Translations under genes and position numbers: made by a program
Assembly (NCBI GenBank): GCA_022573975.1
Contig: JACZSY010000012.1
Location: 1 to 33,228, forward strand
From: SAR324 cluster bacterium
Lineage (GTDB): Bacteria; SAR324; JACQKK01
Direction of reading: 5' to 3'
Length of the DNA stretch: 33,228 nucleotides
Notes under the pieces: generated by a model
Databases searched by the model: none
What the model was told of the DNA's origin: nothing
Seen by the model: only the letters and a program-made list of their open reading frames with translations
Shown here: piece by piece, positions 12,540-33,228 of the stretch
Numbering within the stretch: the stretch's first letter is position 1
How the letters are laid out: every line of letters begins with the position of its first letter

Positions 12540-13403
12540 ATGGCCCCGCCACCCACCGGCCCGGCGCCGGACGAGGCCTCCCTTCCCTCTCAGGCCGCGG
12601 AGGATAAGGGGGAGCCTGACCCTGCTTCCGGCGGGACACCCGGCTCGATCGCCGACACCGATTTCGGCGTGCCTTTCAGCGAGGACATGCTGGCCGCCCG
12701 CGGGCTGGTGAAGCGCTATGCCCGCAGGGTGGTGGTGAACAAGGCCTCCCTGGCCGTGCGGCCTGGGGAGGTGGTCGGACTGCTGGGGCCCAACGGCGCG
12801 GGAAAAACCACCATCTTTTACATGATCGCCGGGGTGATCCGGCCGGAGGCGGGGGACATTTACCTCAAGGGAGACCGCATCACCTCGTTGCCCATTCACA
12901 AAAGGGCGCGCCGGGGGCTGGGCTATCTGCCCCAGGAGCGTTCGGTCTTCCGGCGGCTCACCGTGGAGCAAAACCTGCTGGCCGTGCTGGAGCAAATCCC
13001 GATCTCCCGGGCCGAACGCATGGAACGGATGGAACAGGGGCTGGAGGAATTGAACCTGACCCAGATTCGCGGCTCGCTGGGATTTCAACTCTCCGGGGGC
13101 GAGGCGCGCCGGTTGGAAATCGCGCGCGCCCTGGCCCTGCGGCCCTCGTTCATTCTGCTGGACGAGCCTTTCGCCGGGGTGGACCCCATCGCCGTGCTGG
13201 ACATTCAGGATGTGATCATCCAGATCAAGGGGCGTGGTATCGGGGTGTTGATCACCGACCACAACGTGAGGGAAACCCTCGGCATCACGGACCGGGCCTA
13301 CATCATCAACCAGGGAGAGGTGCTGCTGCATGGCGTGCCGGACGAGCTGGTGCACAACGAGCTGGCGCGGAAAATTTATCTGGGCGAACAGTTCTCGCTA
13401 TAG
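12540..13403 (+). CDS. lptB: LPS export ABC transporter ATP-binding protein LptB
   Basis: A 287-residue ATPase that drives LPS extraction by LptFGC. It has Walker A GPNGAGKT (83-90), the Q-loop PQERSVFRRLTVEQN typical of LptB, the signature LSGGE (184-188), Walker B ILLDEPFAGVDP (205 onward) and the H-loop His241 in TDHNVRE. The LptB tail DELVHNELARKIYLGEQF is present. The first 49 residues are a Pro/Asp/Ser-rich extension absent from most LptB proteins. The ATG at 12687 (MLAARGLVKRY) would give a standard-length protein. I kept 12540 because it lies 2 bp after the lptA stop, which suits coupling. Confidence 0.93.
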   Translation: MAPPPTGPAPDEASLPSQAAEDKGEPDPASGGTPGSIADTDFGVPFSEDMLAARGLVKRYARRVVVNKASLAVRPGEVVGLLGPNGAGKTTIFYMIAGVIRPEAGDIYLKGDRITSLPIHKRARRGLGYLPQERSVFRRLTVEQNLLAVLEQIPISRAERMERMEQGLEELNLTQIRGSLGFQLSGGEARRLEIARALALRPSFILLDEPFAGVDPIAVLDIQDVIIQIKGRGIGVLITDHNVRETLGITDRAYIINQGEVLLHGVPDELVHNELARKIYLGEQFSL

Positions 13404-23417: not shown

Positions 23418-26147
23418 ATGCCCACATTTTTCGCGGTTGACACCATGGCGGTGCTGTACCGTTCCTACTTCGCCATGATCCGCAATCCCCTCATCAACTC
23501 GAAGGGTCTCAACGTGAGCGGCCTGTTCGGCCTGACCCACGCCCTGATCGGCATCCTGGAGCGGGAGAAACCGGCCTATCTGGCCGTGGTTTCCGATACC
23601 CCGGAACCCACCTTCCGGCACAAACGCTATCCCGCCTACAAGGCCACGCGGGAGAAAATGCCCGAGGAATTGGTGGCCCAGCTGCCCTACATTCCGCGCC
23701 TCACCGCGGCCCTGGGGCTGCCCTACCTGATCCTTCCCGGCTATGAGGCGGACGACATCATCGGCACCCTGGTCAAGAAGGCCGAGGCCGCGGGAATGGA
23801 CAGCTACATGGTCACCGGGGACAAGGATTTCATGCAACTGATCAACTCCAAGACCCTGATGTACGCGGCCAGGGGGGAGGAGGTGACCCTCACCGGGATG
23901 GACGGGGTGCGCGAGCGCTTCGGCTGCACCCCGGAGCGGGTGATCGAGGTGCTGGCCCTGATGGGCGACGCCTCGGACAACGTGCCCGGCGTGCCCGGCG
24001 TGGGACCCAAGACCGCCACCAAGCTGATCGGAGACTACGGCGACCTGGAAACGCTGTACGATCACCTGGACGACCTGAAGGGGAAGTTGCGCGAAAACCT
24101 GGCATCCAACCGCGAGCAGGCCTTCCTCTCCCGGGAGTTGGTGACCATCGACACCAGCGTGCCCCTGACGGTGACATTCGAGGAGCTGACGCTCAAGCCC
24201 GCGGCCCATACCCACAACCCGGCCTTGCTGGACCTGCTCACCGAACTGGAGTTCCAGACCCTGCGCGACCGCTTGTTGAAACAGGCCGGCCTCTCCCCGC
24301 CGGCCGGGGAGAGCGACGCAGGGGAGGCCGAGCCGGTGCGCTACTTCACGCTCAAATCCCCGGCGGCGGTGGCGGCCAAGGTGGCCGAATGGAAGGACGC
24401 CCCGATGCTGGTGTTCGATACGGAAACCACCGGGCTGGACTATCTGACCGCCGAGTTGATCGGGCTTTCTTTTTCCACCGAAGCCAAGGAGGCCTATTAC
24501 GTTCCGCTCAACCATCCGTTCCTGGCGCCCCGCCGGGCCGAGGTGCTGGCGCTGCTGAAGCCGTTGTTGGAGGGCGACCGCCCGCCCAAGGGCGGGCACA
24601 ACATGAAGTTCGACATCCACGTGCTGCGCAAGGAAGGAATCGCGGTGGGCGGGTTGGCCCACGACACCATGATCGCCTCGCACCTCAGCGAGCCGGCGGA
24701 ACGGCGCCACGACCTGGACTCCGTGGCCCTGCGCCGGTTGAACATCACCAAGATTCCCACCAAGGAGCTGATCGGCAAGGGCAAGGACGAGATCACCATG
24801 GCCGACGTGCCCATCGACCGGGTCTCGGCCTATGCCTGCGAAGACGCGGACGTGACCTATCGCCTGTTCGAGGACTTTCAGCCCCGGTTGAAGGAAACCG
24901 CGCAGCAGCAGGTCTTCGACACCATCGAAATCCCGCTGATTCCCGTGCTGGTGAACATGGAACACTCCGGCATCCGCTTCGACACCGAAGGCTGCCGCCG
25001 CCTGGGGGAGGAACTGGAGGGGCGGCTGGAAGAAAACCGCGAGCAACTCTACCGGCTGGCCGGGGAGCGCGAGTTCAACCTGAACTCCATCGTGGATCTG
25101 CAGCGGGTGATGTACGAGCGGCTGAAAATCCACGAGCAACTCAAAGTGCGGCCCAAGAAAATCAAGACCGGCATGGGCCTCTCCACCGACGAGGAAACCC
25201 TGGAGAAAATGCGCAGCCATCCTTTTCCCAAGGCCCTGCTGGTCTACCGCGAACTGAGCAAGCTCAAATCGACCTACCTGGACCAGTTGGGCAACGCGGT
25301 GCATCCGCTCACCGGGAAAATTCATACCTCCTTCCGGCAAACCGCCGCGGCCACGGGGCGGCTGGCCTCGGACAGCCCGAACCTGCAGAACATTCCCGTG
25401 CGCAGCGAAGAAGGACGGCGGGTGCGGGCCTTGTTCGTTCCCTCGGACGCGGATCACGTGCTGGTTTCGGCGGATTATTCCCAGATCGAATTGCGGGTGG
25501 TGGCCGATTTCTCCGGCGACCCGGCCTTCCTGGAGGCCTACCGCGCCGGGGAGGACATTCACGCGCTCACCGCCGCGGCGATTTTCGCCGTCGCGCCCGG
25601 CGAGGTGGACCGGGAAATGCGCTCGGTGGCCAAGGAGGTCAACTTCGGCTTGATCTACATGATGGGCCCGGACCGGCTGGGCCTGGTCACGGGGACTTCC
25701 CGGGACGAGGCGCGCGAATTCATCGAGCGCTTCTTCGCCAAATTCAGCACCATCCGCAAGTTTCAGGACGATCTGATCGAACGCGCCCGCAAGGAAGGCT
25801 ACGCCCTCACCAAATGCGGAAGGCGCCGCACGCTTTCGGACATCAACAGCAGCCACCCCTATGCCGCCCGGCTGGCCGAAGGCGCCGCCGTGAACACGCC
25901 CATCCAGGGCACCGCCGCCGAGATCATCAAGCTGGCCATGATCGGCATCGACCGCCGATTGCTTTCCGAAGGCCTGCGCTCCAGGATGGTGCTGAGCATT
26001 CACGATGAGTTGCTGTTCGACGCGCCCCGGGAGGAGGTGGATCGGCTCAAAGTGTTGGTGACCGAGGAAATGGAGGGGGCGATGGAATTGAAGGTGCCGC
26101 TGGAGGTGGAAATCGGCGTCGGCGAAAACTGGCTGGAAGCCCATTGA
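23418..26147 (+). CDS. polA: DNA polymerase I
   Basis: A 909-residue three-domain enzyme for Okazaki-fragment processing and repair. The 5'-3' exonuclease domain (about 1-290) has FAVDTMAVLYRSYFA, GYEADDIIGTL, VTGDKDFMQL and GDASDNVPGVPGVGPKTA. The 3'-5' proofreading domain is intact: Asp334 and Glu336 in VFDTETTG, GHNMKFD and YACEDADVTY. In the polymerase domain motif A is SADYSQIELR (Asp686) and motif C is HDE (862-864). Motif B keeps Lys739, Phe743 and Tyr747, but continues YMMGPDRLG where the usual text is YGMSAFGLA. The start is the ATG at 23418, with GGGA 8 nt upstream. Confidence 0.96.
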   Translation: MPTFFAVDTMAVLYRSYFAMIRNPLINSKGLNVSGLFGLTHALIGILEREKPAYLAVVSDTPEPTFRHKRYPAYKATREKMPEELVAQLPYIPRLTAALGLPYLILPGYEADDIIGTLVKKAEAAGMDSYMVTGDKDFMQLINSKTLMYAARGEEVTLTGMDGVRERFGCTPERVIEVLALMGDASDNVPGVPGVGPKTATKLIGDYGDLETLYDHLDDLKGKLRENLASNREQAFLSRELVTIDTSVPLTVTFEELTLKPAAHTHNPALLDLLTELEFQTLRDRLLKQAGLSPPAGESDAGEAEPVRYFTLKSPAAVAAKVAEWKDAPMLVFDTETTGLDYLTAELIGLSFSTEAKEAYYVPLNHPFLAPRRAEVLALLKPLLEGDRPPKGGHNMKFDIHVLRKEGIAVGGLAHDTMIASHLSEPAERRHDLDSVALRRLNITKIPTKELIGKGKDEITMADVPIDRVSAYACEDADVTYRLFEDFQPRLKETAQQQVFDTIEIPLIPVLVNMEHSGIRFDTEGCRRLGEELEGRLEENREQLYRLAGEREFNLNSIVDLQRVMYERLKIHEQLKVRPKKIKTGMGLSTDEETLEKMRSHPFPKALLVYRELSKLKSTYLDQLGNAVHPLTGKIHTSFRQTAAATGRLASDSPNLQNIPVRSEEGRRVRALFVPSDADHVLVSADYSQIELRVVADFSGDPAFLEAYRAGEDIHALTAAAIFAVAPGEVDREMRSVAKEVNFGLIYMMGPDRLGLVTGTSRDEAREFIERFFAKFSTIRKFQDDLIERARKEGYALTKCGRRRTLSDINSSHPYAARLAEGAAVNTPIQGTAAEIIKLAMIGIDRRLLSEGLRSRMVLSIHDELLFDAPREEVDRLKVLVTEEMEGAMELKVPLEVEIGVGENWLEAH

Positions 26148-26160
26148 ACGGAGTCGTCCG

Positions 26161-26560
26161 ATGGCCATGGAGACCTTGCGGGGCGGGTGTCATTGCGGAA
26201 AGGTGCGCTTCGAGATCGAGACGGATCCGTCCTATGTCTCCGAGTGCAACTGCTCCATCTGCACCAAAAAAGGCATTCTGCATCACCGGGTGCCCAAGGA
26301 AAAATTCCGCCTGCTGTCCGGGGAGCCGGAGCTGGAGACGTACCGCTTCAACACCGTGGCGCTGGCTCAAGGGCATGGCCGCCCGCCATTATTTTTGCAG
26401 GGTTTGCGGCATTCACACCTTCACCCATCCCCGCACCGCCCCGGAGGACTACACGGTCAATTTCCGCTGCCTGGACGATTTCGACCTGGAATCGGCGACC
26501 CTGGAGCGCCGGCGGTTCGACGGCCGGAACTGGGAAGAGGCGGTCAAATCCTATCGCTGA
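26161..26560 (+). pseudogene. Frameshifted GFA-family (DUF636/CENP-V) gene
   Basis: The N-terminal half (26161 to about 26365) encodes RGGCHCGKVRFEIE...CNCSICTKKG...YRFNT, the zinc-binding beginning of the glutathione-dependent formaldehyde-activating (GFA-like) fold. The C-terminal half (about 26380-26560) lies in the +1 frame and encodes ARHYFCRVCGIHTFTHPRTAPEDYTVNFRCLDDFDL, ending in KSYR and a stop. Together they make one normal family member of about 130 residues. The break falls between NT and ARHYFC, where the DNA is about 16-19 nt longer than expected from the family. CGGAG lies 8 nt before the ATG and polA ends 13 nt upstream. It is either a recently broken gene or a sequence error. 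Confidence 0.8.
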
Positions 26561-26575
26561 GAGGTGGCAAAACCA

Positions 26576-26617
26576 CGGAAACCAAACCGCGGAAACCAAA
26601 CCGCGATAACCAAACCG
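26576..26617. repeat. Tandem repeat, 14-bp unit, 3 copies
   Basis: CGGAAACCAAACCG twice exactly (26576, 26590), then CGATAACCAAACCG (26604). It lies between the GFA remnant and the cupin gene. Confidence 0.93.
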
Positions 26618-26673
26618 CGATGCCACGAGACCGCATCGAACCCGGCGTCTTTTACCAATGGAGAATATTCACG

Positions 26674-26997
26674 ATGGACGTATTCAAACTGGCGGAGATG
26701 ATCCGCTATCAACCCGATAAAATGGCCAAGGTGGATGTGGCCTCCAGCCCCCGCCTGATCTGCGGGCTGAACTGCTTCGAGCCGGGACAAGTGCAGAAGG
26801 TGCACGCCCACAAGGGAGCGGACAAGCTGTATTACGTGGTGGAAGGCAGCGGCGAATTTTCCGTGGGCGGGGAAAAGCGCACCCTTTCGGCCGGGGAGGT
26901 GCTCTACGTGCCCGAAGGCCTGGAACACGGCGTGGTCAACACCAGCGGCGCCCGATTGGCGGTGCTGATCGTGATCACCCCCAACCTGCATTCCTGA
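26674..26997 (+). CDS. Single-domain cupin protein
   Basis: A 107-residue beta-barrel protein. Cupin motif 1 is present as VHAHKGADKLYYVVEGSGEFSVGG, with metal ligands His44 and His46 but Asp50/Lys51 near the place where a glutamate usually stands. Motif 2 is AGEVLYVPEGLEHGVVNTS, with His85. It may bind a metal and a small molecule, or act as a small isomerase or sensor; the substrate is unknown. The ATG has TGGAGA 10 nt upstream. A 22-bp duplication begins inside its last codons. It sits between the GFA remnant and the ParB-like gene in the same direction. Confidence 0.85.
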   Translation: MDVFKLAEMIRYQPDKMAKVDVASSPRLICGLNCFEPGQVQKVHAHKGADKLYYVVEGSGEFSVGGEKRTLSAGEVLYVPEGLEHGVVNTSGARLAVLIVITPNLHS

Positions 26998-29075: not shown

Positions 29076-31625
29076 TTGAACGACCCGAACGACACAAACG
29101 ATACGAACGATGCGGCCGAATCCGGAGCCATTCGTTTCGCCGATGCGCTTTCCGCGGATGCCCGCGCCATCATAACCGAGGAGGTGGGCATCCTCAAGCG
29201 GCTGCGGACGCACCTCACCAGCTACGTGCCATCCTGGCGGGACGTGAATTACGACGAGTCGCTGCTGGAGTTGCGCGATTCCCTGGGCGAGGCCTCGGAG
29301 GACGAGGTCGCCCAGATCGTGCAGCAAATGGCCAACCTGGCCTCCCTGTCCAGCCATCACCGCGAGCAGGACGGGGCGGAAGCCACGCTGGACCCGGAAT
29401 CTCCCTATTTCGGCCATCTGCGCATTCACCAGAACGGCCGCACGCGCGAGCTGTTGATCGGCAACCGCACCCTGGCCAGCAGCGAGCTGCCCTATGCCAT
29501 CATCGACTGGCGTCACGCCCCCATCAGCAAGGTCTTCTACCTTTACCGTGAAAACGACGAGTACGAGGAAGCCATCGGCGGGCGAATGGTGGAAGGACGC
29601 ATCCTGGCCCATCGGCGGGTGATGATCCTCAAGGGGCGGCTGGTGCGCATCGTCTGTCCCCAGGGGATATTCATGCTGGATTCCGGCTCGTGGCGCGAAG
29701 CGGTGGAGCAACGGCCCGGACTTTCCGGGGGCGAGGGGACGTCGTTGCGGCCCGGCTCCCTGGCGCCGCTGAGCGAGGACTCCCCCGCCCTGGGGCGCAC
29801 CGACAAGCGGCTCTCCACCATCACCGGGCTGATCGATCCAGCGCAGTTCGACCTGATTACCCGGCCCGATTCGGGCGTGGTGGTGATCGACGGCGGGGCC
29901 GGGTCGGGCAAGACCACCATCGCCCTGCACCGCATCGCCTATCTGGCCTACCGGGACCCCGAACGCTTCCAGTCCCGCGCCATGCTGGTGGTCGTCTTCG
30001 GCCGCGCGCTGGCCAGGTACATCGCCTCCCTGCTGCCCGCGCTGGGGGTGGAGGGCGTGCGGGTCGAGGTGTTCGAAGACCTGCTGCACGAGTTGCGGCG
30101 GCGCCATTTCCCGGAGTTGGAGGCCGGCTACGACGAGGCCACCCCCGCCACGGTGGTTCGCTTCAAGCAACACCCCGCCCTGCTCGCCTTGCTGCAGGAA
30201 CGAGTCGCCGCCAAGAGCCTGGAGATCGGCCATGAACTGACCAGGACGGCCGCGGAACCCGAGGCCCGGCAGCGGGTGGAGATGGCCTGGGAGGCCCTTG
30301 GCGAGGTGCCTTTGGGCCGCCGGCTGCAAGCATTCGACCGCTGGGTGCGGGGCAAGGAACCGGTGCCGGGGGTGGGGGGCTTCGGCGATGACTGGCTGGC
30401 CAGACAGCGGCTGACCAAATACCTCGGCGATACTTATGGGGCCGAACTGGAGCGGCCCCGATTGCTGGCCCAGGGGTTATGGCGCGAAGCGCTGCTGGAC
30501 CTGGCCGGGCTTTCCAGCGCCATGGAACGGCTGGCCCCCGGAGAGTTTTCCCAAGGCCAATTGACCGAGGTGCGGGACTGGGCCTTTCGCTTGTATGCGG
30601 CCATGGAGGATCATGCCACCCTCCTGCAACAGCGAAAAGAGCAGGGAGGAGGGAGGAACAGGCGGCCGGAGGAGCAGGAACCGCGCATGGGCTCGGATGG
30701 CCAGGCACCCCGCATGGGTGCCGAGGAGTTGGAACCGCGCATGGGCTCGGGTGGCTGGGCACCCCGCATGGGTGCCGAAGAAAAAGAAGACATGGCGGCG
30801 CCCGAAATTCCCGGCATCGACCGGGAGGACGATACGCTCCTTCTGCTGCTGCACACCTTGACCGTGGGCCCCCTGCTCAGCCGCCGCAAGCGCCCCCTGC
30901 GCTTCCAGCATTTGCTGGTGGACGAGGCGCAGGACCTGGGGCCGCTGGACTTGCGGGTGCTGATCGGCATGGCGGCCCAGCCCCACTCGATCACCCTGGC
31001 CGGGGACACCGACCAGCGGATGGTCATCCACAACGCCTTCAACCGCTGGGAGGATGTGCTGGAACATCTGGAACTGGAAAGCACGGCCATCTCCCCGCTG
31101 CAGGTGGGCTACCGCTCCACAGCCCAGATCATGGACTTCGCCAAGGCCGTGCTGGGGCCGCTGGCCACCGGCCGCCCCTGGATCGCCACCCGGGAGGGCG
31201 CCCCGGTGTCCCTGCTCCGCTTCACCGATCCAGGGCAGGCCGTGGCCACCCTATCGGAGGAACTGCTGCAACTGATGCGCCGTGAACCGGGAGCCAACGT
31301 GGTGCTCATCTCCCGCCATCCCGAACGCGCCGACCTGTATTACGAGGGCCTGCTCCAGGCCGATCTGCCGAGCCTGCGGCGGGTGGCGGACCAGGATTTC
31401 ACCTTCACCCCGGGAATCGAGGTGACCGACGTCAGGCAGGTGAAGGGCCTGGAATTCGATTACGTGATCCTGCTGGACGTGGACGCGGCCAATTACCCAG
31501 ACGACACCGCCTCGCGCTACCTGCTGCACATCGGCGCCACCCGGGCCGCCCATCAGTTGCTGCTGACCGCCTGCGCCAAACCCTCCCCGCTCATTCCCCC
31601 CAACGTGCCCGTACACTTGTCCTGA
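29076..31625 (+). CDS. HelD/UvrD-like superfamily 1 helicase
   Basis: An 849-residue protein. The N-terminal 230 residues follow the HelD pattern (SPYFGHLRI, AIIDWRHAPISKVFY, GGRMVEGRI). The helicase core has Walker A GGAGSGKTT (273-281), Walker B VDEAQD (615-620), motif III LAGDTDQRM, motif V VRQVKGLEFDYVILLDVD and motif VI GATRAAHQLLL. HelD proteins recycle stalled RNA polymerase; DNA unwinding in repair is the alternative. The start is a TTG (29076), with GGAAGA upstream; no ATG precedes the conserved region. Residues 2-13 come from a 9-bp repeat, and residues about 535-570 are a linker of two 18-residue repeats (EPRMGSxGxAPRMGAEE). A decayed copy of its last 55 codons lies downstream of pyrF. 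Confidence 0.9.
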   Translation: MNDPNDTNDTNDAAESGAIRFADALSADARAIITEEVGILKRLRTHLTSYVPSWRDVNYDESLLELRDSLGEASEDEVAQIVQQMANLASLSSHHREQDGAEATLDPESPYFGHLRIHQNGRTRELLIGNRTLASSELPYAIIDWRHAPISKVFYLYRENDEYEEAIGGRMVEGRILAHRRVMILKGRLVRIVCPQGIFMLDSGSWREAVEQRPGLSGGEGTSLRPGSLAPLSEDSPALGRTDKRLSTITGLIDPAQFDLITRPDSGVVVIDGGAGSGKTTIALHRIAYLAYRDPERFQSRAMLVVVFGRALARYIASLLPALGVEGVRVEVFEDLLHELRRRHFPELEAGYDEATPATVVRFKQHPALLALLQERVAAKSLEIGHELTRTAAEPEARQRVEMAWEALGEVPLGRRLQAFDRWVRGKEPVPGVGGFGDDWLARQRLTKYLGDTYGAELERPRLLAQGLWREALLDLAGLSSAMERLAPGEFSQGQLTEVRDWAFRLYAAMEDHATLLQQRKEQGGGRNRRPEEQEPRMGSDGQAPRMGAEELEPRMGSGGWAPRMGAEEKEDMAAPEIPGIDREDDTLLLLLHTLTVGPLLSRRKRPLRFQHLLVDEAQDLGPLDLRVLIGMAAQPHSITLAGDTDQRMVIHNAFNRWEDVLEHLELESTAISPLQVGYRSTAQIMDFAKAVLGPLATGRPWIATREGAPVSLLRFTDPGQAVATLSEELLQLMRREPGANVVLISRHPERADLYYEGLLQADLPSLRRVADQDFTFTPGIEVTDVRQVKGLEFDYVILLDVDAANYPDDTASRYLLHIGATRAAHQLLLTACAKPSPLIPPNVPVHLS
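29078..29113. repeat. 9-bp tandem repeat, 4 units, at the helicase N-terminus
   Basis: GAACGACCC, GAACGACAC, AAACGATAC, GAACGATGC encode the acidic/polar start NDPNDTNDTNDA. The unit length keeps the frame. Confidence 0.85.
30678..30785. repeat. 54-bp in-frame tandem repeat in the helicase linker
   Basis: Two 54-bp copies (30678-30731, 30732-30785), each made of two similar 27-bp halves, encode a Pro/Arg/Met/Gly linker between helicase subdomains, just before the Walker B region. Confidence 0.9.
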
Positions 31626-31645
31626 GGGGGGCGGCGGAAGGAATA
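31463..31645 (+). repeat. Helicase 3' end: functional copy of a dispersed direct repeat
   Basis: This stretch, the last 54 codons of the helicase gene plus about 20 bp, is repeated in decayed form at 32727-32912. Long identical runs include GCCAATTACCC, GGCGCCACCCGGG, TTGCTGCTGACCGCC and CCAAACCCTCCCCGCTCATT. Confidence 0.9.
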
Positions 31646-31676
31646 ATCCACGACTCCCGCGGCAAGCGGCGGGGAA

Positions 31677-31805
31677 TCAAACCTCCGGGCAGGTACGCAG
31701 CCTGAAATTTGGCGGCGGGCCTGTTGGCGGGACGCTGTGTGAACCGGCGCATTCCCAATAAAAGAGGCTGGCGCCCACGGTGACAATTTTGAATTTCGTT
31801 GCCAT
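31677..31805 (-). CDS. Possible 42-residue protein in the pyrF upstream flank
   Basis: A short frame on the minus strand, MATKFKIVTVGASLFYWECAGSHSVPP... ending at TGA 31677-31679. A GGAAAAA run sits just before the ATG. It has two cysteines and a Pro-rich tail, and resembles no family I recognise. It may be a real small gene carried with pyrF, a fragment of a longer gene, or chance. Confidence 0.25.
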   Translation of the reverse strand: MATKFKIVTVGASLFYWECAGSHSVPPTGPPPNFRLRTCPEV

Positions 31806-31882
31806 TTTTTCCGCATCAGCGTCTATTACGTCATATTGCGAGGGAGGAGAAATTGGGGGGCTGAAATTCCAAGGGAGGTGGC

Positions 31883-32653
31883 ATGGCGAAGGGATTGCCG
31901 GGAATTCCGCTGCAAGATCGCTTGATTGTCGCGCTCGATTTGCCGGAATCGGATGCGATCGAACTCGTCGGCAAGCTCCAACCAAGCGTAAATACATTCA
32001 AGGTGGGTTTGCAACTGATTGTGTCGTCCGGTGGCATGGGCGTAGTCGAGCGCCTGGGCGAACTGGGGGCGCGGGTTTTCCTCGATCTCAAGATGTTCGA
32101 CATTCCGGAGACCGTGATTCAGTCTCTCAACCAGATTCAAACCCGTCATCGGCACATCGTTTTCACTACCATTCATGCTTTCAGCCGTGGGTTGGAGGGC
32201 GCCCTCAAATTCAGGGATGCATCCAACAGCCTGAAAATTCTCGTCGTTACCTTGCTGACCAGCATGGACCATACCGATCTCACGGATATCGGGATTGAGA
32301 AAAATGTGATGGACTTCGTGATGGCCCAGACCAGACGCGCCGCCGATGCCGGCTGTGATGGCGTGATCGCATCGGGGCTTGAGGCCAAGGTTATCCGCAA
32401 GGAGTTTGAAAACCTGCTCATCGTGACTCCGGGAATCAGGCCCGCATGGGCGCAGGTGCCGAACGACGACCAAAAACGAGTGACCACCCCAAGGGAAGCA
32501 ATCATCAATGGGGCCGACTACCTTGTGATTGGCCGCCCCATTTATCGAAATCCCCTGGGGAACGACCCACGCGAGGCGGTGCGCCGCATTTTGGATGAAA
32601 TTGCCGCGGCCATCGATGAAAGAGACGCCTCCTCGGCGAGCGCGGTGGGGTAG
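31883..32653 (+). CDS. pyrF: Orotidine 5'-phosphate decarboxylase
   Basis: A 256-residue TIM-barrel enzyme that converts OMP to UMP, the last step of UMP synthesis. LIVALDLPESDA begins the barrel. The catalytic segment is DLKMFDIPETV (Asp68, Lys70, Asp73), and the phosphate-binding parts TPGIRP and DYLVIGRPIYR are present. A strong AAGGGAGG site lies 5 nt before the ATG. A small hairpin (GCGGG AAA CCCGC, 32656-32668) follows the stop. Its third codon positions and its upstream flank are visibly more AT-rich than those of the neighbours. The gene is flanked by the helicase 3' end and a decayed copy of it, so transfer or duplication is likely. Confidence 0.95.
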   Translation: MAKGLPGIPLQDRLIVALDLPESDAIELVGKLQPSVNTFKVGLQLIVSSGGMGVVERLGELGARVFLDLKMFDIPETVIQSLNQIQTRHRHIVFTTIHAFSRGLEGALKFRDASNSLKILVVTLLTSMDHTDLTDIGIEKNVMDFVMAQTRRAADAGCDGVIASGLEAKVIRKEFENLLIVTPGIRPAWAQVPNDDQKRVTTPREAIINGADYLVIGRPIYRNPLGNDPREAVRRILDEIAAAIDERDASSASAVG

Positions 32654-32726
32654 TGGCGGGAAACCCGCGGGATGCAACGATAGCGCAGGCCCAAGCGATC
32701 ACGTAACAGCCGGCAACGCCCCGCGA

Positions 32727-32912
32727 ATGTGAATCGGTTGGACAGGTTGGCCGTGGCCAATTACCCCGGCGATACCGCGTCGCGCACCCTGCCGCACCCT
32801 GCCGCACACCGGCGCCACCCGGGACGCCCACAAATTGCTGCTGACCGCCCGCCAAACCCTCCCCGCTCATTCCCCCCAGCGTGCCCGTTCACTTGTCCTG
32901 AGCCGGGCGGCG
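32727..32912 (+). pseudogene. Decayed second copy of the helicase 3' end
   Basis: The sequence aligns along its length with 31463-31645. Reading in the first frame gives AVANYPGDTASR, matching AANYPDDTASR of the helicase. It then loses frame where GCACCCTGCC is duplicated (32784-32803), and again at a 2-bp deletion (CTGACCGCCCGCC against CTGACCGCCTGCGCC). Identity recovers through CAAACCCTCCCCGCTCATTC to the TCCTGA stop. No other helicase sequence precedes it. Confidence 0.88.
32784..32803. repeat. Tandem repeat, 10-bp unit, 2 perfect copies, inside the decayed helicase copy
   Basis: GCACCCTGCC occurs twice in a row, where the intact helicase has a single related segment (GCTACCTGCT). This is a frame-breaking duplication that arose after the large repeat formed. 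Confidence 0.9.
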
Positions 32913-33228
32913 ATAGGCGCATAAAATAACTGGTGCTTCGAGCACGCATAGCAGGTTGATCCTTAACATCAACGCGGACTTGACAAGCGTCCCCATAACA
33001 GCGCCGGAGATGGGGATTCCCCCGTCAATCCCAGCGAAAACCTACCGAATCCGCACAAGGCGGAAACCCAGGGGATGGGTATTGCCACGAGACCCCACCC
33101 TCGGTCCCTCCCCGTGCGATGATGTTGAACAGCCCAGGGAGGGATGACTTCTCCCATTATCAAAGTTGAAAAAACTTCGCTTTTTCCCTTATCAAGGTTT
33201 TTCAAAAAAACCTCGGAGAAGGACGATT

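Follow-up and report, generated by a model that had tools for sequence, protein, structure and literature searches.

The question raised by this locus is why the only pyrF gene of a genome lies between the 3' end of a helicase gene and a decayed copy of that same end. The locus occupies the last part of the window, i.e. the whole 33,228-nucleotide stretch of SAR324 cluster bacterium DNA that was analysed (contig JACZSY010000012.1; Table 1). The reading favoured here, with moderate confidence, is that a resident pyrF was set beside the helicase by a rearrangement that took place after this genus had split from its sampled relatives, that the helicase tail was duplicated, and that an IS110-family insertion sequence was either involved or trimmed the region later.

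Table 1. Features of the helicase–pyrF region (window positions)
Feature	Position	Strand	Remarks
HelD-like SF1 (UvrD-type) helicase gene	29076..31625	+	complete, 849 aa; start codon uncertain
Proximal repeat copy	31464..31641	+	last 54 codons of the helicase including the stop, plus 16 nt; from alignment
REP-like palindrome CCGCNGCAAGCGGCGGGGAATC	31657..31678	+	in the helicase–pyrF spacer, 15 nt past the proximal copy
pyrF, orotidine-5'-phosphate decarboxylase	31883..32653	+	256 aa; OMPdecase 8.5e-45
Distal repeat copy	32729..32917	+	decayed, non-coding helicase 3' end; 86% identity, indels, broken frame
IS110-family insertion sequence, truncated right end	32918..33024	+	directly abuts the distal copy; 90% identity over 107 nt with the L087 right end
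Dispersed repeat	33071..33228	+	reaches the contig end; 93% identical to G000:C42 6286-6445

The direct repeat around pyrF

The protein encoded upstream of pyrF matches the Pfam families UvrD-helicase (2.5e-12) and UvrD_C_2 (1.9e-11), and its best NCBIfam match is HelD_BACSU (1.1e-47, under the cut-off of that model). Since it does not pass the curated model of HelD, the RNA-polymerase recycling motor (162.5 bits against a cut-off of 419), it is referred to as HelD-like only. Between the two halves of the helicase a 54-bp unit containing the palindrome GGCACCCCGCATGGGTGCC occurs twice in frame (30669-30778), with no further occurrence in 384 kb of the genome. The downstream pyrF is intact: its product exceeds the curated cut-offs of NF001273/PRK00230 (210.5 against 193 bits) and TIGR01740 (155.7 against 92.3), and the catalytic D-x-K-x-x-D-I-P motif can be read from the translation as FLDLKMFDIPETV. 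The gene gives the only pyrF match in the 93%-complete assembly, in which no second or native pyrF was found elsewhere and pyrE is present.

An earlier note on this DNA had claimed that the last 54 codons and the stop of the helicase recur downstream, with indels and in the same orientation, and had suggested aligning the two copies. Local alignment of 31463-31660 with 32720-32940 bears this out: the copies are identical at 151 of 176 gap-free columns (86%), and the score of 111 lies far above the best scores obtained with random windows of the contig (18) and with shuffles (23). The two copies are offset by ~1.27 kb and match most strongly at 31480-31636 and 32748-32912, and both ends of the repeat are sharp, with flanking stretches that align no better than shuffles. 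Between the copies lies pyrF with an AT-richer flank, as the note had also stated (G+C of 56% in the spacer and 57% in pyrF, against 67% in the helicase). Equally sound was its claim that the distal copy is decayed and the event not recent, since the copies have diverged by 14% and the distal one carries insertions of 3 and 10 nt, the longer being a tandem copy of CGCACCCTGC, and a deletion of 2 nt, by which the reading frame is broken twice. Substitutions number 15 in 70 positions of the 5' part of the repeat and 10 in 108 of the 3' part (Fisher p 0.03, for a comparison picked after viewing the data). That the repeat is an artefact of assembling a metagenome bin is scarcely credible: the assembly does comprise 428 contigs, and the window contig ends in dispersed repeats, but a duplicated assembly path would not give copies that differ by 14% and by frameshifting indels, and the reported contamination is 0.93%.

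Within the coding part of the distal copy, 21 substitutions are split 4:10:7 over codon positions 1, 2 and 3, so that silent changes are not in excess and this copy is under no coding constraint. The distal copy matches the proximal one at 11 of the 13 private residues, i.e. those at which the proximal copy departs from four other helicases of the family, which places the copying in this lineage, after its split from those genera. Judged by these sequence characters, the distal copy arose within this lineage by duplication from the adjacent helicase and has since decayed; homology to a parent gene, a disrupted frame and the loss of coding constraint are also what characterises a truncated pseudogene. 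A foreign or independent second helicase as its source is ruled out by the common private residues and the absent synonymous bias. A related proposal, also raised in the earlier note, by which a complete second helicase once stood here in tandem and was mostly replaced by pyrF, would account for a distal piece that consists of a helicase 3' end running in the same direction, but it is highly improbable: no other helicase remnant was found between pyrF and the distal copy, the relatives examined are without tandem helicases, and the excess of silent changes expected of a once-working second gene is missing.

Helicase and pyrF neighbourhoods in the family

Upstream of the helicase the divergent crcB is conserved in five other genera; the downstream side varies. 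The comparison of the region downstream of the helicase in relatives, which had been proposed together with the original observation, revealed neither pyrF nor a second helicase or helicase tail downstream at 26 related helicase loci, all from other genera, the absence of pyrF being judged from pyrF matches on other contigs or at other places and from the listed downstream ORFs. The arrangement is absent from the relatives examined, and the sequences support an old bracket that, among these genomes, only this lineage has. An older helicase–pyrF adjacency is nevertheless possible, since among the family comparison genomes (which include G002, G004, G006, G007, G008 and G009; G000 is the present genome) G007 gave no helicase match and the contigs of G002 and G009 run on for no more than 200 bp past the helicase stop. 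A match of the G009 sequence downstream of the helicase to the proximal spacer (18 against a null maximum of 17) proved gappy and of low complexity on inspection and was not used. Such an adjacency would have to be ancestral if the helicase 3' end and pyrF had been duplicated together in tandem and the second pyrF had then been lost through an IS-linked deletion. This course of events requires no incoming DNA, and it would explain the abrupt left boundary of the distal copy as a duplication joint and its right boundary as a deletion joint into the IS remnant. We consider it unlikely, however, as the prior adjacency that it requires was seen in no relative examined and neither a second pyrF nor the proximal spacer could be traced after the distal copy.

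The relocation of a resident pyrF is approached more directly through the gene itself. In the PyrF tree, G000, G007 and G009 have one type, which groups with the PyrF of two proteobacterial MAGs, and G002, G004, G006 and G008 of the same family carry a different clade. In G002, G004 and G006 pyrF, an ABC transporter and fabI make up a conserved block (pyrF-ABC-fabI); the fabI neighbourhood of G000 and G007 is without the pyrF block. Upstream of fabI in G007, where G002, G004 and G006 have pyrF-ABC-permease, there is an IS110-transposase-like ORF (34% identity; L114, G007:C36, 2624-3673). Since the CTP-synthase tree unites G000, G007 and G009 in one clade (support 99/98), the simplest history would be a single exchange of the PyrF type before these genera split, and judging by the trees this exchange probably predates the present rearrangement. 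In the PyrF tree G007 branches more deeply than it does with CTP synthase, with modest support, so that repeated transfer, with more than one exchange, is possible.

The position of pyrF differs between the three genomes: it lies beside the helicase in G000, between an MFS transporter and a cytochrome-oxidase-like gene in G009 and beside an acetyl-CoA-synthetase-like gene in G007 (the neighbours in G009 and G007 were named from N-terminal sequences, not from profile hits). A PyrF type that is common to the three but sited differently makes relocation a more likely source of the G000 bracket than fresh import, and pyrF was probably relocated beside the helicase; we infer that it moved in, rather than that the neighbourhood changed around it. 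As to flanks moving along with the gene, those of G007 and the downstream flank of G009 align no better than shuffles, and the upstream flank of G009 is marginal (score 15.5 against a shuffle maximum of 15.5). The GC3 of pyrF (0.68) falls inside the range of the other ORFs of this genome, so that its AT-richness is weak evidence of foreign origin, and a recently imported foreign pyrF was rejected on these grounds of composition. A literature search on pyrF transfer returned nothing relevant. The earlier note had offered, as one of two possibilities, that pyrF arrived with the bracketing segment, and it is partly supported that the gene reached its place by rearrangement; the bracket as a mark of foreign acquisition is not supported, given the PyrF type common to G007 and G009, the CTP-synthase clade and the different sites. 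Similarly, the PyrF tree for which the note had called does separate this type from that of G002, G004, G006 and G008, but unites it with G007 and G009, so that the exchange is probably older than the bracket. The locus thus suggests that the exchange of the PyrF type and the later change of position were separate events.

The outer junction and the repeat background

The IS110 remnant starts where the helicase homology stops, and its 107 nt correspond to the right end, outside the coding region, of a ~1.55-kb insertion sequence, of which intact copies in this genome (L087:4145-5221 and L088:5257-6333) encode DEDD_Tnp_IS110 and Transposase_20 domains. These elements, with intact transposase ORFs (L087 3886-5436 and L088 5029-6592), are 84% identical to each other, and solitary right-end remnants are present not only in the window but also at L086 26-140, at L091 2114-2233 and in L158. 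No left end was found near pyrF or in the helicase–pyrF spacer. Because the piece in the window is without its left part, the junction is better regarded as a deletion or recombination joint than as a clean insertion boundary, and the joining of the distal copy to a truncated IS110 end points to an IS-linked deletion or recombination that shaped it. The insertion sequence presumably took part in the rearrangement.

Other repeats are found in the window and beyond it. The REP-like palindrome occurs at 25 places genome-wide, including the window (≤2 mismatches), against 0 for the reversed control, and contigs of this genome (e.g. L117, L144, L146, L153, L155 and L157) hold numerous dispersed repeats of ~150-300 bp with 70-90% identity between contigs. 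Rfam gave no structured-RNA match in the region up to an E value of 0.5. Elsewhere in the window, a single ORF (26161-26997) begins with a match to a GFA-like domain and ends with one to a cupin; the overlapping frame 26144-26560 appears to extend the GFA protein, which would mean a frameshift or two overlapping genes.

The repeat could also have been left by integration at the gene 3' end, in which an element with an attachment site matching the helicase 3' end restored the gene with its own copy and displaced the original tail, and was afterwards reduced to pyrF, with loss of its integrase. Integration of this type is recognised by direct repeats of a gene 3' end that extend through the stop, as described for tRNA and tmRNA targets (PMC4383910), and a second, younger bracket of like shape exists at an enoyl-CoA hydratase gene. 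We regard such an integration as quite unlikely: between the repeat copies pyrF stands alone, with no integrase or recombinase (the contig ends ~300 bp past the distal copy, so that the outer side is unseen), the bracketed piece has only ~1.1 kb and one housekeeping gene, the helicase end serves as a target in no relative examined, and the proximal copy bears no signs of foreign sequence, its private residues being common to the distal copy.

At the second bracket, the 81-nt end of the enoyl-CoA hydratase gene (L159, G000:C286, 11464-11544) recurs 1.85 kb downstream (13309-13389) with 98.8% identity, on the far side of an alpha/beta hydrolase and a TetR gene. The geometry is that of the helicase–pyrF bracket, the age much younger, and the two could be products of the same kind of event. 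Local direct repeats (45-400 bp) amount to 14.5 per Mb in this genome (828 kb of 4.38 Mb surveyed), 18.3 in family relatives (109 kb) and 9.6 in the next family (314 kb), rates close enough for a genome-wide excess of such brackets to be rejected. The remark of the earlier note that an essential-pathway gene in such a bracket is unusual is weakened by the hydratase bracket in the same genome and by local direct repeats that are about as frequent in relatives. It is a long shot that the genomes of this group exchange small cargo, a gene or two at a time, at protein-gene 3' ends, with a displaced gene tail but no recombinase left behind, so that the old helicase–pyrF bracket and the young hydratase/hydrolase-TetR bracket would reflect one process, possibly IS110-guided; a site-specific process at gene ends is speculation from two cases. 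If both brackets do reflect one process, they would mark a route of small-cargo gene exchange that can be put to the test; if not, they belong to routine genome remodelling.

For the relocation of a resident pyrF, the following steps can be envisaged. After the genus had split from its sampled relatives, a rearrangement would have placed a segment of ~1.1 kb with pyrF directly downstream of the helicase, leaving a second copy of the last 170-180 bp of the helicase on the far side of pyrF. The proximal copy would still complete the helicase, the distal copy would be untranslated and decay neutrally, and an IS-linked deletion or recombination would have shaped its outer junction. The event that produced the bracket would be one of three, namely integration at the gene 3' end, integration of a circle, or tandem duplication followed by an IS-linked deletion. 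In each case, the locus documents that the sole gene copy for a step of a central pathway, the last of UMP synthesis, sits in a remodelled, IS-marked spot.

Comparison with known systems

Integration at a gene 3' end is known from e14 at icd in E. coli, where the target is regenerated and a fragment displaced. The present locus resembles such genomic-island and prophage integrations in that the repeat comprises the 3' end of the target gene including the stop, with a proximal copy that completes the helicase, and thus a restored gene, and a distal copy that forms a displaced tail on the far side, which are the marks of an integrative element. By contrast, only ~1.1 kb and one housekeeping gene separate the copies, there is no integrase, and no use of this target is known in relatives. 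A likeness may also be drawn to decayed partial gene duplications near insertion sequences, since the distal copy is a frameshifted fragment of the neighbouring gene, is free of coding constraint and is joined to an IS remnant; unlike an ordinary truncated pseudogene, however, this fragment is one side of a bracket around the genome's sole pyrF.

IS110-family insertion sequences are guided by a bridge RNA (PMC11208160). The sequence past the distal copy agrees over 107 nt with the right, non-coding end of IS110-type elements of the same genome, but in contrast to an intact element the remnant is truncated and without a transposase, and no left end was found near pyrF. Finally, the two PyrF clades in one family, and the usual block that is without pyrF in G000 and G007, resemble xenologous replacement of a housekeeping gene. 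Since the exchange of PyrF appears to be older than the bracket, the latter would not be a direct scar of this replacement. Most likely, the bracket is the scar of an old local rearrangement beside an IS remnant, and not a new kind of genetic system.
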